Source of the DNA: Streptomyces niveus
GTDB taxonomy: Bacteria > Actinomycetota > Actinomycetes > Streptomycetales > Streptomycetaceae
Assembly (NCBI RefSeq): GCF_002009175.1
Contig: NZ_CP018047.1
Location: 3,906,001 to 3,970,000, forward strand
Direction: 5' to 3'
Length of the DNA: 64,000 nt
The position numbers were made by a program, and so were the translations under genes. The notes under the pieces are model-generated. The model saw only the letters and a program-made list of their open reading frames with translations. It was not told the origin of the DNA and made no database searches. Of the stretch, positions 10,853 to 49,051 are shown one piece after another. Numbering within the stretch: the stretch's first letter is position 1; every line of letters starts with the position of its first letter.

Positions 10853-11536
10853 GTCGCGACAACCGGCCGGGTGCGGTCCGGCGCCGAGTTGTGCACAGCA
10901 CCCACTTCCAAGCGGATTCCCAGGTAACTCCAGGTGTTAGTAGTAGTAGGGCCTGTGGATTCCGTGGATAACGTCGTTTTCGCAGGTCAGGCCCACTTTT
11001 TTGTCCACCGGCCCTGTGGGCGCCGTCGGTGGACAACCCCGTCGCTCTGTGGACGGCCGAAAGTTCTGCACAGCCGGTGCACAGGACACCCCGACTTCTC
11101 CCCAGGGTCGTCCCCAGCTTTTCCGGCGTTCCCCACAGGGTCCCGGACAACCTCGGTGTGACGCCTTTCACTCGACACGGTGAACAGACGTGTTCTGTTG
11201 CCGAACAGTGGACAGCGGTGTGGAGAAGCGGGTCGAAGCTGTGGGCAACGGGCCGCTGCCTGTGGGCCGCCGGTGGACAACCGGAGACCGGTCCTGTGGA
11301 CGAAAAAACTGTCCACAGGCTGTGGAGAAAAGTTGGCCACAAATCCCCAGGGGTCTGACCTGCCATGATCCAACTCCGGTCGGCCCGCCTGTGGACGCAG
11401 TCTGGACAACTTATCGATCCCCAGGGTGTGGACGGGAGATGGGGCCGTTTTCTGTGGAGAAGCGGCCCGCGACGACCCGTATTCGAACAGCGGTTGAGCG
11501 CGTGTCGCGTGCCGATCACCCGCCGGACATGACGAA
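10853..11536. other. oriC: Chromosomal replication origin oriC
   Basis: The non-coding dnaN-dnaA interval is packed with matches to the Streptomyces DnaA box TTGTCCACA. One-mismatch boxes on the plus strand start at 10889, 11001, 11309 and 11333. On the minus strand they occupy 11028-11036, 11240-11248, 11272-11280, 11295-11303, 11321-11329, 11401-11409 and 11453-11461. Two-mismatch boxes are at 10963-10971, 11048-11056, 11207-11215, 11390-11398 and 11427-11435. They form a left group (10889-11056) and a denser right group (11207-11461). Bidirectional replication of the linear chromosome starts here. Confidence 0.95.
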
Positions 11537-11600: not shown

Positions 11601-13475
11601 TCAGCCGTTCTTGATGCGGTTGGTGAGTTCGGTGACCTGGTTGTAGATGGAGCGCCGCTCGGCCATCAGTGCGCGGATCTTCCGGTCCGCGTGCATCACG
11701 GTCGTGTGGTCCCGGTTGCCGAACTGCGCGCCGATCTTGGGCAGCGACAGGTCGGTCAGCTCTCGGCAGAGGTACATCGCGATCTGGCGCGCGGTCACCA
11801 GCACCCGGCTGCGCGACGATCCGCAGAGGTCCTCGACGGTCAGCCCGAAGTAGTCGGCCGTCGCCGCCATGATGGCGCCCGCGGTGATCTCGGGGGCCGA
11901 GTCCTCGCCGCCCGGGATGAGGTCCTTGAGCACGATCTCGGTCAGCCCGAGGTCCACCGGCTGCCGGTTGAGCGAGGCGAACGCCGTCACCCGGATCAGC
12001 GCGCCCTCCAGCTCGCGGATGTTGCGCGAGATCCGCGACGCGATGAACTCCAGCACCTCGGGCGGCGCGTTCAGCTGCTCCTGCACGGCCTTCTTACGGA
12101 GGATCGCGATACGCGTCTCCAGCTCCGGCGGCTGCACGTCGGTGGTGAGGCCCCACTCGAAGCGGTTGCGCAGCCGGTCCTCCAGGGTGATCAGCTGCTT
12201 GGGCGGCCGGTCGGAGGACAGCACGATCTGCTTGTTGGCGTTGTGGAGCGTGTTGAAGGTGTGGAAGAACTCCTCCTGCGTCGACTCCTTGCTCGCCAGG
12301 AACTGGATGTCGTCGACGAGCAGGATATCGACGTCCCGGTAGCGCTTGCGGAAGGTGTCGCCCTTGCCGTCGCGGATGGAGTTGATGAACTCGTTGGTGA
12401 ACTCCTCCGAACTGACGTACCGCACCCGCGTGCCGGGATAGAGGCTGCGCGCGTAGTGGCCGATGGCGTGCAGCAGGTGCGTCTTGCCGAGTCCGGACTC
12501 GCCGTAGATGAAGAGCGGGTTGTACGCCTTGGCCGGTGCCTCCGCGACGGCGACGGCCGCCGCGTGCGCGAACCGGTTGGACGCCCCGATGACGAAGGTG
12601 TCGAAGAGGTACTTGGGGTTGAGGCGCGCGTGATGCTCACCGGGTCCCGGCGGCGGCGACGCCTGCGCGCCGAGCGGCCCGGTCGCCCCGCCCCGGCCGA
12701 CGTGCCGAGACTGCTGCGGGTCCAGGTCGTGACGCTCGGGGCGCTGCTGCCGCTGCTGATCGTAGGGCTGGCTCTCCTGCGGCTGCTGCGGCCGGTAGTC
12801 GTGCTGCGGCTGCTGCGGCCGCGCGGTCGCGTACGGGTCACGGTCGTGGAAGCCGCCGAGCCGCTGCTGCTGCCAGGACAGGTCCTCCTGCGTCCGGGGC
12901 CAGGCCCCGGGGTCGGGGCGCTGCTGCTGGTAGCCGGGGTACGCGGGCCTGGCGGTCGGCATGCCGTCGTCGTCGGAGCGGCGGCCGTAGGGGTGGTAAC
13001 CGCCGTCCTGGCGCATGTCGTCGTGCCGCGGATCGCGGGAGTCGTCCGGCCGAGGGTCGTCGTGCCTCGGATCACGGGAGTCGCGGGAGTCGTCCGGCCG
13101 AGGGTCGTCGTGCCTCGGATCACGGGAGTCGCGGGGGTCGCGCCCGTCGTCGTGCTGCGAGTTCTGGTAGCGGTTCTGCTGCGGCAGCGGTGCGGGCTCG
13201 CCCGCCGAGTCGTCGACGGTGATGGCGATACGGATCGGGCGGCCGCACTCGTGGCTCAGGGTCTCGCTGATGAGCGGGGCGAGGCGGCCTTCGAGGACCC
13301 GCTTGCCCCACTCGTTGGGCACGGCCAGCAGTGCGGTGTCGGCGACCAGGGCGAGCGGCTGGCAGCGCTCGATCCACTGTTTGTCCTTGGGCTCGACTCC
13401 CTGCTGGCCCTCCCTGAGGAGCTGCTCCAGCACTCGTGGCCACACTGCGGCAAGATCGGCAGGTACGTCAGCCAC
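11601..13475 (-). CDS. dnaA: Chromosomal replication initiator DnaA
   Basis: A 624-residue initiator, long because of the linker, as in other Streptomyces. Domain I (1-85) mediates self and helicase contacts. Domain II (about 90-283) is Asp/Arg/Gln/Pro rich and contains two identical 16-residue repeats (115-130 and 131-146). Domain III is the AAA+ core, with Walker A GESGLGKT (325-332) and Walker B LLVDDIQF (from 385). Domain IV ends with the DnaA signature [12 protein letters not shown] that reads the TTGTCCACA box. The start is GTG 13475. Two DnaA boxes next to its probable promoter (13596-13617) indicate autorepression, as known in S. lividans. Confidence 0.98.
13035..13130 (-). repeat. 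48-bp perfect tandem duplication in dnaA linker
   Basis: Bases 13035-13082 are repeated exactly at 13083-13130. Each copy encodes one 16-residue unit ([16 protein letters not shown]) of DnaA domain II; a partial third unit follows in the protein. Confidence 0.95.
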
Positions 13476-13835
13476 AGGGCACGCTCTCTCGCTGGTCCCA
13501 CGAATGTGTGGTTCTCGGGACGGGGTGGGAAGACCGGCGGAAAAGAATCCGGAGTTCGGTCACGGTAGTCAGGCCGACCCACGCGGTTCAAGTTGTTGTC
13601 CACAGGCTGTGCATAATGGAACGTGGCAGCTGGCTGGTTTGACCGTATGGCGTAGCCGCGCGTACCGTGACCAGGTCGAGTTGTCGATGGCTGCTGCCGC
13701 CTGCCTCCGATGGGCAAGGATCACGATCCGTGGTCGTGAAGCGGTGCACTCGGGCGTAATCGCGAGCTACTCGTGGGCGCACGGTGACAGCCAGGCGATT
13801 TGCCGCCTTCCCACCATCATTTCTGGAGCCCCCGA
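13476..13835. promoter_or_regulatory. Divergent dnaA-rpmH promoter region
   Basis: 360 bp without a gene between divergent dnaA and rpmH. On the minus strand, TTGAAC (13586-13591) and TACCGT (13562-13567) spaced by 18 bp look like the dnaA -35 and -10. Immediately upstream lie a perfect DnaA box TTGTCCACA (13596-13604, plus) and a one-mismatch box TTATGCACA (13609-13617, minus), in opposite orientation. A CATAAT (13612-13617) facing rpmH may be part of its promoter. The remaining ~200 bp would be an rpmH leader. Confidence 0.65.
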
Positions 13836-45738: not shown

Positions 45739-47148
45739 TCAGCGCGTGGCGCCCGTGACCAGCCAGTGGCCGGACCGGGTGCGCAGCCACAGCGTCAGCA
45801 TGCGGACCGCCATCATCAGCGTCATGGCCCACCACAGGGCGGTGAGTCCGCCCCCGAACACCGGCACCAGCAGGGCGACCGGTGCGAAGACGATCAGGGT
45901 CACCACCATCGCCTTCGCGAGATAGGGACCGTCGCCCGCGCCCATCAGCACACCGTCCAGTACGAAGACGATGCCCGCGACCGGCTGGGTGACCGCCACC
46001 ACCAGGAGGGCGGGCAGCAGGGTGTCCTGGACCAGCTGATCGCCCGTGAACAGGGGGATGAACAGCGGGCGCGCCAGCACGATCAGCACCCCGAGTCCCA
46101 CGCCGGAGACCACACCCCACTGCACCATGCGACGGCAGACGTCCTTGGCACCCTGGGGATCGTTCGCCCCCAGATAACGGCCGATGATCGCCTGCCCGGC
46201 GATGGCGATGGCGTCGAGTGCGAAGGCCATCAGGCTCCACAGCGACAGGATGATCTGGTGCGCGGCGACATCGGCGTCGCCGAGACGGGCCGCGACGGCG
46301 GTGGCGATCATCAGGACCGCGCGCAGGGAGAGCGTACGGACCAGAAGGGGGACGCCCGCGTGGGCGCTGGCCCGGATGCCGGCGGAGTCGGGCCGGAGCG
46401 AGGCGCCGTGGCGGCGCGCGCCCCGTACGACGACCACCAGATAGGCCGCGGCCATACCGAACTGCGCTATGACGGTTCCCCAGGCGGAACCGGCGATGCC
46501 GAGGCCGGCGCCGTAGACGAGCACCACGTTGAGGACCGCGTTGGCGCCGAAGCCGCCGATGGCGACGTACAGCGGGGTCCGGGTGTCCTGGAGGCCGCGC
46601 AGGACGCCGGTCGCCGCCAGAACGACCAGCATGGCCGGGATTCCGAGACTGGAGATACGCAGATAGGTGATCGCGTACGGGGCGGCGGTGTCCGATGCGC
46701 CGAAGATGTCGACGAACCAGGGCGCCAGGGGGAGCGTGACGGCGATGACGGCCGCGCCCAGCAGCAGGGCGAGCCAGATCCCGTCCATGCCCTGCCGGAT
46801 GGCCGCCTGAAGATCACCCGCGCCGACGCGACGCGCGACGGCCGCCGTGGTGGCGTAGGCGAGGAAGACGAAGACGCTCACGGCTGTGCCCAGCAGAGCC
46901 GCCGCGATCGCCAGTCCGGCGAGATGCGGAGTACCGAGATGGCCGACGATCGCGCTGTCGACCATCAGGAAGAGCGGCTCGGCGACGAGGGCGCCGAAAG
47001 CGGGCACGGCGAGGGCGATGATCTCGCGGTCGTGTCGCCGTCGGGCCGCCTTTGACCCCTTGTTCGGTCCCCCGTCGAGCCGGTCGCCGGGGTCACCGCC
47101 CCGACCGCTGTCGGGGCCGGAACCGGATGCCGTGGGGACCTGTGTCAT
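45739..47148 (-). CDS. MATE family efflux transporter (DinF-like)
   Basis: A 469-residue multidrug and toxin extrusion protein with about twelve membrane helices. ALAVPAFGALVAEPLFLMVDSAIVGHLGTPHLAGLA is the characteristic N-lobe start, and DADVAAHQIILSLWSLMAFALDAIAIAGQAIIGRYLG the C-lobe hallmark of DinF-type members. The first ~35 residues are polar. Probably a drug or metabolite/H+ or Na+ antiporter; substrate unknown. ATG 47148 lacks a strong ribosome-binding site. It diverges from dnaB. Confidence 0.92.
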   Translation of the reverse strand: MTQVPTASGSGPDSGRGGDPGDRLDGGPNKGSKAARRRHDREIIALAVPAFGALVAEPLFLMVDSAIVGHLGTPHLAGLAIAAALLGTAVSVFVFLAYATTAAVARRVGAGDLQAAIRQGMDGIWLALLLGAAVIAVTLPLAPWFVDIFGASDTAAPYAITYLRISSLGIPAMLVVLAATGVLRGLQDTRTPLYVAIGGFGANAVLNVVLVYGAGLGIAGSAWGTVIAQFGMAAAYLVVVVRGARRHGASLRPDSAGIRASAHAGVPLLVRTLSLRAVLMIATAVAARLGDADVAAHQIILSLWSLMAFALDAIAIAGQAIIGRYLGANDPQGAKDVCRRMVQWGVVSGVGLGVLIVLARPLFIPLFTGDQLVQDTLLPALLVVAVTQPVAGIVFVLDGVLMGAGDGPYLAKAMVVTLIVFAPVALLVPVFGGGLTALWWAMTLMMAVRMLTLWLRTRSGHWLVTGATR

Positions 47149-47572
47149 GCGCTCAATCTAATCTTCCACAGGTAAGAGATGCAATGCGGCTCCGCTCCTT
47201 ACCGACTGGTGAGATTCGGGCACTGCTGTGCGCCGTTTGCTCGGATCTTGGACCAGCTTGAAAAGTTTTTCTCCCCCACAGCCGGTGGACGGAGAAAGGC
47301 CAGGTCAGAGCCGATGTGGCGGAAGGGTCGCGAGGTTGTCCACAGTGCTGTCCCCCGGTCCGTGCACAGGTTCGCCGGAGTTCTCCACAGCATATGGTCC
47401 TTCGTCCACATGGCCTGTGGATAACCAGATTGGCGGACGGTCCCCGCGGGCCTACCGTGGACCGACGTCCGACGCGCCGGAACCGGAGTCAGGCCACTCG
47501 ATTTGTCAGTGTCGTGCCGTAGAAAAGAGTGGCACGGCGAGGTCCGCTTGGCGGACGGGAGGAGGTGGCCGG
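47149..47572. promoter_or_regulatory. dnaB upstream region with DnaA boxes
   Basis: 424 bp without a gene between divergent MATE and dnaB genes. Four DnaA boxes lie within 89 bp: TTGTCCACA at 47336-47344 (perfect), TTCTCCACA at 47381-47389, TCGTCCACA at 47402-47410, and TTATCCACA on the minus strand at 47416-47424. It should also hold both promoters. Confidence 0.75.
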
Positions 47573-49051
47573 ATGAGCATCCCCGAGCCATTGGACGACC
47601 CCTGGACCGAGGCCGGTCCGGGTGATCGTCTGCCGGTCTCCCGCCAGCGCCGAGGTGAGGGAAGGGGCCGCGACGAGCAGCACGAGCGCGGCAGGGACAA
47701 CGCCGCGTGGGACGGCGGATCACCCGGTTTCGAGCGCGTGCCTCCCCAGGACCTGGACGCCGAACAGTCCGTGCTCGGCGGCATGTTGCTCTCCAAGGAC
47801 GCCATCGCCGACGTCGTGGAGATCATCAAGGGCCACGACTTCTACCGCCCCGCGCACGAGACGGTCTTCCAGGCGATTCTCGACCTGTACGCGAAGGGCG
47901 AGCCGGCCGACCCCATCACGGTGGCCGCCGAGCTGACCAAGCGCGGTGAGATCACCCGGGTCGGCGGAGCGTCGTATCTGCACACACTGGTCCAGTCGGT
48001 GCCGACGGCGGCGAACGCGTCGTACTACGCGGAGATCGTGCACGAGCGCGCGGTGCTGCGCCGTCTCGTCGAGGCGGGCACCAAGATCACGCAGATGGGA
48101 TACGCGGCGGACGGCGACGTCGACGAGATCGTCAACTCCGCCCAGGCCGAGATCTACGCGGTCACCGAGCAGCGCACCAGCGAGGACTATCTGCCCCTCG
48201 GCGACATCATGGAGGGCGCGCTCGACGAGATCGAGGCGATCGGTTCACGCAGCGGTGAGATGACGGGTGTGCCGACGGGGTTCACGGACTTCGACTCGCT
48301 CACCAACGGGCTGCACCCCGGCCAGATGATCGTCATCGCGGCCCGTCCCGCCATGGGTAAGTCGACGCTCGCGCTGGACTTCGCGCGCGCGGCCTCCATC
48401 AAGAACAACCTGCCGAGCGTCATCTTCTCGCTGGAGATGGGGCGCAACGAGATCGCGATGCGCCTGCTCTCGGCGGAGGCGCGGGTGGCGCTGCACCATA
48501 TGCGTTCCGGCACGATGACGGACGAGGACTGGACGCGGCTGGCCCGCCGGATGCCGGACGTCTCGCAGGCGCCGCTGTACATCGACGACTCACCGAACCT
48601 GTCGATGATGGAGATCCGCGCGAAGTGCCGCCGGCTCAAGCAGCGCAACGGACTGAAACTGGTGGTCATCGACTACCTCCAGCTGATGCAGTCCGGCGGT
48701 TCGAAGCGCGCGGAGAGCCGCCAGCAGGAGGTCTCGGACATGTCGCGAAACCTCAAGCTGCTGGCGAAGGAGCTGGAGCTGCCGGTGATCGCGCTCTCCC
48801 AGCTGAACCGTGGCCCCGAGCAGCGTACGGACAAGAAGCCGATGGTCTCCGACCTGCGTGAATCGGGTTCCATCGAGCAGGACGCGGACATGGTGGTGCT
48901 GCTCCACCGAGAGGACGCGTACGAGAAGGAGTCACCGCGCGCGGGCGAGGCGGACCTGATCGTGGCCAAGCACCGTAACGGCCCGACGGCGACGATCACG
49001 GTGGCGTTCCAGGGCCACTACTCGCGCTTCGTGGACATGGCGCAGACCTGA
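47573..49051 (+). CDS. dnaB: Replicative DNA helicase DnaB
   Basis: A 492-residue hexameric helicase. After a polar ~45-residue start comes the N-terminal domain (PPQDLDAEQSVLGGMLLSKDAI), a linker helix, and the RecA-like domain. Walker A is ARPAMGKST (257-265), Walker B LKLVVIDYLQLM, and ESGSIEQDADMVVLLHR follows. No intein interrupts it. ATG 47573 has GGAGGAGG upstream. DciA (6676) is the probable loader. Confidence 0.97.
   Translation: MSIPEPLDDPWTEAGPGDRLPVSRQRRGEGRGRDEQHERGRDNAAWDGGSPGFERVPPQDLDAEQSVLGGMLLSKDAIADVVEIIKGHDFYRPAHETVFQAILDLYAKGEPADPITVAAELTKRGEITRVGGASYLHTLVQSVPTAANASYYAEIVHERAVLRRLVEAGTKITQMGYAADGDVDEIVNSAQAEIYAVTEQRTSEDYLPLGDIMEGALDEIEAIGSRSGEMTGVPTGFTDFDSLTNGLHPGQMIVIAARPAMGKSTLALDFARAASIKNNLPSVIFSLEMGRNEIAMRLLSAEARVALHHMRSGTMTDEDWTRLARRMPDVSQAPLYIDDSPNLSMMEIRAKCRRLKQRNGLKLVVIDYLQLMQSGGSKRAESRQQEVSDMSRNLKLLAKELELPVIALSQLNRGPEQRTDKKPMVSDLRESGSIEQDADMVVLLHREDAYEKESPRAGEADLIVAKHRNGPTATITVAFQGHYSRFVDMAQT

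Follow-up and report, generated by a model that had tools for sequence, protein, structure and literature searches.

Why a short intergenic gap in front of dnaB, the gene of the replicative DNA helicase, should be crowded with DnaA boxes in Streptomyces niveus, and what these boxes do at that place, is the question addressed here. The window, that is, the whole stretch of 64,000 nucleotides that was analysed, corresponds to positions 3906001-3970000 of a 7,990,492-bp single-contig genome; in it dnaB and a divergent gene for a MATE-family transporter are separated by 424 bp. The initial annotation had placed four DnaA boxes within 89 bp of this gap (47336-47424), and all four were found exactly there; it had overlooked the boxes at 47348, 47360 and 47162, together with a predicted promoter which the array abuts. 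The features of the locus are the following:

45739..47148, minus strand: MATE-family transporter gene, divergent from dnaB (Pfam MatE, E 1.9e-46)
47162..47170, plus strand: outlying box TCTTCCACA with two mismatches; box 1 follows 174 bp downstream
47263..47308, no strand assigned: second conserved element, AAGTTTTTCT...CACAGCC.GTGGA...CAGGTCAG, from family alignments
47336..47344, plus strand: DnaA box 1, TTGTCCACA, strict; mean column identity 0.94 in 55 family loci (the same measure below)
47348..47356, plus strand: weak DnaA-box-like 9-mer, CTGTCCCCC; mean column identity 0.88
47360..47368, plus strand: weak DnaA-box-like 9-mer, CCGTGCACA; mean column identity 0.87
47381..47389, plus strand: DnaA box 2, TTCTCCACA; mean column identity 0.99
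47402..47410, plus strand: DnaA box 3, TCGTCCACA; mean column identity 0.92
47416..47424, minus strand: DnaA box 4, TTATCCACA, strict; mean column identity 1.00
47430..47458, plus strand: predicted dnaB promoter, HrdB-type, from conservation and a loose HrdB-like pattern
47573..49051, plus strand: dnaB, replicative DNA helicase (Pfam DnaB, DnaB_C)

Boxes 1-4 each carry at most one mismatch to TTRTCCACA, two of them being strict, and their start-to-start spacing is 45, 21 and 14 bp; the 21 bp from box 2 to box 3 amount to two helical turns, and box 4, whose orientation is opposite to that of box 3, is followed after 5 nt by the predicted -35. The sequence of box 1 is the high-affinity box for S. 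coelicolor in Table 1 of PMC4285127. The weak 9-mer at 47348 follows box 1 by 12 bp on the same strand, with a 3-bp gap between the two, and in 38 of the 55 family loci with exact geometry this +12 position reads either CTGTCCACC (19 loci) or CTGTCCCCC (19 loci); the 9-mer at 47360, 24 bp after box 1, appears in some relatives as TTGTGCACA, with one mismatch, and the outlying box at 47162 reads TCRTCCACA in many of them.

Over the entire window TTRTCCACA is matched 34 times at no more than one mismatch, against 7.76 matches expected from shuffles, and a simple Poisson estimate gives an expectation of four-box clusters in 89 bp of 1.6e-6 per window at the shuffle rate and of 6e-4 at the observed rate. 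A genome-wide search for strict boxes returned 53 of them, against 10 for the pattern read backwards; with box variants 295 places were counted, about the first third of them being listed. The origin, oriC, occupies 10889-11461, between dnaN and dnaA, about 36 kb from the dnaB array (which is thus at +36 kb), and in the 124 kb searched around it (L138, the window, L139 and L140) the only cluster of at least four boxes outside oriC is the one at dnaB. This cluster holds two strict boxes, against none among the 13 boxes of oriC, so that strong boxes near to but outside the origin, as in a datA-type cluster, are present here 36 kb away. The dnaA gene itself runs from 11601 to 13475 on the minus strand; just upstream of it, in the region 13596-13616, a strict TTGTCCACA (13596) and an inverted TTATGCACA (13608) were observed, which fits the expectation for an autoregulated dnaA.

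The initial annotation had made its reading depend on the presence of the boxes in related species, and there they are indeed present: at least three boxes lie upstream of dnaB in 71 of 71 genomes of the family, and at least four in 65, all 71 upstream sequences being distinct. These genomes comprise 39 named loci (L001-L039, including L035, titled Saccharothrix and put in the family on dnaB identity and on the array) and 32 further genomes of the window's family, and one species could occur in both sets; the named loci are biased to close relatives, because the best 80 of 591 were taken, and the nearest dnaB sequences among those listed belong to Streptomyces. The 45/21/14 spacing, with boxes 1-3 each at no more than two mismatches, is kept in 55 of 68 aligned family loci, and in these 55 the identity is 87-100% within the boxes, as compared with 66-83% in the stretches between them and 69% in the flank upstream. 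The 68-locus alignment was anchored on the strict box 4, which dropped four family loci lacking one, L100, L103, L104 and L107 (the genome of L107 is that of L173); the first three still have other boxes. Because box 4 had been the anchor, the count was redone on boxes 1 and 2 alone, whereby 62 of the 71 genomes could be anchored; 56 of these have their strict box 4 in the expected fixed position, and in six it is shifted.

Thirteen of the 68 aligned loci depart from the exact spacing or miss a box. In L172 boxes 3 and 4 are 10 bp farther apart, and box 3 lies 1 bp farther from box 2; L011, L021 and L031 carry an 11 bp insertion with an added box; a one-base shift in the spacing is seen in L032, L098, L105, L108 and L110; a box is missing or weaker in L037 and L095; and L099 and L171 are without the standard array. 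In L096 the spacing is kept, yet 15 nt instead of 5 separate box 4 from the -35. The insertions of about one turn (L096, L172, L011, L021, L031) preserve the helical phase.

Phasing was assessed on one locus per genus from 43 genera outside the family, a set stricter than that of 95 loci with related species. The distances between boxes on the same strand cluster at 11-13, 20-24, 32-33, 43-44 and 53-56 bp. A period of 10.7 bp (R 0.873) fits best for the 37 pairs in which both boxes have at most one mismatch, and one of 10.9 bp (R 0.803) for the 166 pairs in which the partner may have up to two, the maxima of a uniform null in 2000 trials being 0.560 and 0.307, respectively. With such phased spacing the boxes face one side of the helix, as for an ordered assembly of DnaA and not for its loose storage.

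Beyond box 4, the predicted promoter is composed of a -35 TTGGCG (47430-47435), a 17-nt spacer and a -10 TACCGT (47453-47458); transcription of dnaB would start near 47465, and the array would then extend from about -129 to -41. A -35/-10 pair follows box 4 in 66 of the 68 family loci, the two left out of the promoter scan being L099 and L171, and in 63 of these 66 the -35 lies exactly 5 nt past box 4; the -10 reads TACCGT in 45, TAGCGT in 14, TACGGT in six and TAACGT in one. The same pattern was met in 17 of 13600 mononucleotide shuffles. Since an E. coli-type scan of the region returned no promoter, the promoter call rests on conservation and on the loose HrdB-like pattern; in S. coelicolor, according to PMC6344877, dnaB (SCO3911) is a member of the listed HrdB regulon. 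As a sequence prediction, then, the boxes are placed at the dnaB promoter, and none of them overlaps the predicted -35 or -10.

Other parts of the gap and of its surroundings deserve a description of their own. The second conserved element (47263-47308) begins 73 bp upstream of box 1, is strongly conserved in the family and holds an inverted box-like pair (a dyad); in L172 one of the two halves matches the strict DnaA box. On the minus strand, at 47148-47184, a candidate MATE promoter (TTGCAT, 18 nt, TAGATT) was recognised by eye; it ends 6 nt before the ATG and would therefore give a leaderless mRNA. This promoter is overlapped, likewise as judged by eye, by the outlying box at 47162 and by an inverted repeat, GTAA...TTAC, which is conserved. 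A structured RNA was considered, but a search of Rfam at E up to 1 gave no match, the second conserved element included. As for the helicase gene, many relatives (G002, G005, G018, G019, G021, G022, G025 and others) show its matches in separate pieces inside long open frames, which suggests inteins in the dnaB of those relatives; unlike these, the dnaB of the S. niveus window is an unbroken frame.

The association of DnaA boxes with dnaB extends over the class Actinomycetes. Out of a sample of 60 genomes, spread evenly across the class, one was without a match at the cut-off and one without upstream sequence; 58 loci were read, three of which were too short, and 55 were counted, four of them from the window's own genus. 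At least one box is present in the 500 bp upstream of dnaB in 53 of these 55 loci, at least two in 41, at least three in 29 and a strict box in 27; in total 150 boxes were found, where shuffling these sequences gives an expectation of 7.05, and 43 strict boxes against 0.25, and 27 kb of dnaB coding sequence contained none. The loci in which no box was found upstream of dnaB are L125 and L167 in the class sample and L055 among the named loci. In the main upstream bin the density of boxes is 16.1 per kb for L001-L039 and 10.4 per kb for L040-L080, against at most 0.53 per kb at more than 750 bp upstream and also within or beyond dnaB. Among the named loci outside the family, boxes are found in 32 of 33 without an upstream MATE match (assessed by tblastn to E 0.01) and in eight of eight with one: the boxes track dnaB rather than the MATE neighbour. 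The signal is weaker in the other classes of the phylum, where 27 loci from 37 genomes gave at least one box in 16, with 26 boxes against 2.30 expected and five strict ones against 0.15.

Inside the class, nearness to dnaB is inseparable from nearness to oriC, because dnaB lies near oriC wherever this was examined: no more than about 95 kb separate it from dnaA in each of the 13 single-contig Actinomycetes genomes with both genes placed (G000, G009, G012, G018, G025, G042, G054, G055, G059, G067, G072, G077 and G087), circular closure being assumed where dnaA is at a contig end and the length of G054 being rounded. In the one-contig genome of L047 the distance is about 57 kb; in G032 dnaA and dnaB are on different contigs. 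The complete genome G097 (locus L187), of another class, has a distant dnaB with no boxes, a finding compatible with several readings.

Clusters of DnaA boxes near a Streptomyces origin have been discussed before. A 2006 study by Smulczyk-Krawczyszyn et al. (J Bacteriol 188:6184) reportedly described three of them in S. coelicolor, H69, H24 and D78. The dnaB array is probably the counterpart of H24, since it lies in the gap upstream of the orthologue of SCO3911, the S. coelicolor dnaB, a region which the cosmid name H24 would fit; H24 is reportedly, like the dnaB array, a cluster near oriC and outside the origin in a Streptomyces. Phasing, promoter contact and class-wide range are not known to have been part of the 2006 work on H24. 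The origin island of S. coelicolor is described in PMC8743542 as extending to dnaB (SCO3911).

Closer to function, PMC7738170 reports that five regions were recovered in a pull-down with M. tuberculosis DnaA, including oriC, rpmH-dnaA, Rv0057 and Rv0010c-Rv0011c, the homologues of the same five regions being found by ChIP-seq in M. smegmatis. The Rv0057 region is the one upstream of dnaB, as the array is here, with Rv0057 as the neighbour of dnaB where S. niveus has the MATE gene; it is among the five strongly bound regions, and a mutant DnaA with reduced binding there is reported in the same text to lower dnaB expression in mycobacteria, a link which rests on one mutant protein and may reflect an indirect effect. 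In Caulobacter crescentus, which belongs to a different phylum, dnaB is part of the DnaA regulon and shares the predicted boxes upstream (Hottes et al. 2005, as summarised in PMC8203912); the accessible text of that review mentions no dnaB of an actinobacterium as a regulon member. Near-origin clusters in Streptomyces and the binding of mycobacterial DnaA upstream of dnaB are thus already known; no prior description of the phased architecture abutting a promoter, of its class-wide range or of a conserved partner at crgA (see below) was found in the literature searched.

This partner is a second DnaA-box cluster (L138:9687-9898; G000:C1:3895687-3895898), located at -21 kb from oriC, directly downstream of crgA (L138:9395-9652; Pfam CrgA) and before a convergent rhomboid gene. 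Of 57 genomes with a crgA match the 30 with the best E-values were taken (L201-L230), 28 of them with at least 300 bp of downstream sequence; at least one box within 400 bp downstream was found in 27 of the 28, at least two in 24 and a strict one in 16. The density is 12 boxes per kb in the first 200 bp downstream and 1.2 in the next 200, against at most 0.54 per kb elsewhere within about 1.5 kb of crgA, and in 9 of the 26 loci from genera other than that of the window two boxes are spaced by 13 bp and an inverted box follows after another 10 bp. In S. niveus crgA and dnaB flank oriC on opposite sides (-21 and +36 kb), as they do in 8 of 12 other genomes (G009, G033, G042, G059, G075, G076, G077, G087), both genes being on the same side in G054, G055, G067 and G072, with circular closure assumed where needed. 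The crgA cluster is probably the counterpart of the mycobacterial Rv0010c-Rv0011c site of DnaA, which it would match given that Rv0011c is crgA. For that site no obvious correspondence in other bacterial species was seen by its authors, as stated in PMC7738170, and the crgA cluster may now supply one; no report of crgA together with DnaA boxes was found in the literature searched.

Two groups of strict boxes were also observed farther from oriC: one at about +74 kb (G000:C1:3991430-3991483; L140:1430-1483) overlaps the end of a 209-aa ORF, next to which lies a gene for a MerR-type regulator, and the other, at about +86 kb (4003478-4003776; L140:13478-13776), adjoins a prephenate dehydratase gene at its 3' end. 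They are possible counterparts of D78.

On these grounds the array is likely, in our judgement, to be a DnaA-responsive control region for dnaB, a reading here taken as a whole, activation included. The regulation of dnaB by DnaA, which the initial annotation had put forward, draws good comparative support from the fixed geometry of the boxes relative to a conserved predicted promoter, from the class-wide tie to dnaB whatever the neighbouring gene, and from the mycobacterial binding and the expression change linked to it (PMC7738170). It has to be set against the proposal, which we rate as rather improbable, that the array is mainly a reservoir of DnaA, of the datA or B. subtilis cluster type, its place beside dnaB being secondary; the boxes would then hold DnaA after the fork has passed about 36 kb from oriC, delaying re-initiation. 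According to a review, untimely initiation is repressed in S. coelicolor and in B. subtilis by clusters of DnaA boxes analogous to datA of E. coli (PMC5742627); the strict boxes that distinguish the array from oriC, the position of dnaB near dnaA in all 13 single-contig genomes and the conservation of a cluster at a place which is not a promoter, between the convergent crgA and rhomboid genes, all agree with storage. However, storage of DnaA by itself requires no helical phasing, no fixed distance of 5 nt to a promoter and no class-wide stay beside dnaB. The strongest affinity and the deletion phenotype, moreover, reportedly belonged to D78 in the 2006 study of Smulczyk-Krawczyszyn et al. From datA the S. 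niveus array differs further in abutting the predicted promoter of a replication gene, datA being dependent on IHF according to PMC5742627.

Equally concerned with dnaB, though opposite in sign, is the idea of autoregulatory repression, in which DnaA, when plentiful, would block or loop the dnaB promoter from boxes 3-4 and reduce its transcription, in the manner of the dnaA promoter. DnaA binds and regulates its own promoter in several species including S. lividans (PMC8203912), boxes are found upstream of dnaA here as well (13596 and 13608), and box 4 is just 5 nt from the predicted -35; we nevertheless regard repression as unlikely, since both predicted promoter hexamers are free of boxes and since the weakly binding mycobacterial mutant under-expresses dnaB instead of over-expressing it (PMC7738170). 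Hardly any weight is left for a role of the boxes in the divergent MATE gene instead of dnaB: the outlying box does lie within the candidate MATE core promoter, but the array abuts the predicted dnaB promoter, and the 32 of 33 named loci which keep their boxes without an upstream MATE match ruled out that the boxes follow that gene. Just as improbable is a cryptic second replication origin or its remnant; many weak and few strong phased boxes and a short A+T run (47263-47272) recall one, yet an ordinary oriC with 13 boxes sits between dnaN and dnaA, and by eye no extended A+T-rich unwinding region is apparent. MtrA was also considered as the binder and set aside, the accessible text of PMC5487470 naming dnaA, dnaN and oriC as its targets and the term dnaB being absent from the main text.

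Returning to the control of dnaB by DnaA, the course of events that we infer, from DnaA binding in S. niveus and use of the promoter to the sequence in which the boxes fill, the activation and a titration, if there is one, would be as follows. DnaA, probably in its ATP form, would bind the strict boxes 1 and 4 first, and the weaker boxes between them would then be filled cooperatively, giving an assembly of about 89 bp, in phase with the helix, which would end directly behind the RNA polymerase at the HrdB-type promoter. Activation is the most economical reading because the array is upstream of the predicted core promoter and not over it, and a position that fits an activator better than a repressor implies that rising DnaA would raise the supply of DnaB helicase, at or before initiation. 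Judging from position and conservation, the dnaB promoter is thus probably under DnaA control and activated by it. Since the dnaB boxes are closer to the consensus than those of oriC, the array should fill before the origin does; it may, in addition, hold DnaA, keeping a small pool of it.

A broader proposal, which is offered tentatively and may well need to be abandoned, is that Actinomycetes possess, apart from oriC, an ancient pair of sites for control by DnaA, at the dnaB promoter and just downstream of crgA: the former would act as an orisome-like sensor, filling before oriC and switching on the helicase, and the latter would reset or store DnaA. If this were true, helicase and initiator would be made ready together by way of the dnaB array. 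How initiation is linked to the supply of replication proteins in high-GC Gram-positive bacteria is poorly known, and the presence of similar rows of boxes upstream of dnaB in nearly all sampled relatives suggests that the initiator helps to control the supply of the helicase. A phased array fixed at the dnaB promoter across the class would represent a simple and testable link between the levels of initiator and helicase, and it joins the near-origin clusters of Streptomyces, known in silico, and the pull-down peaks of mycobacterial DnaA into what seems to be one conserved control set.
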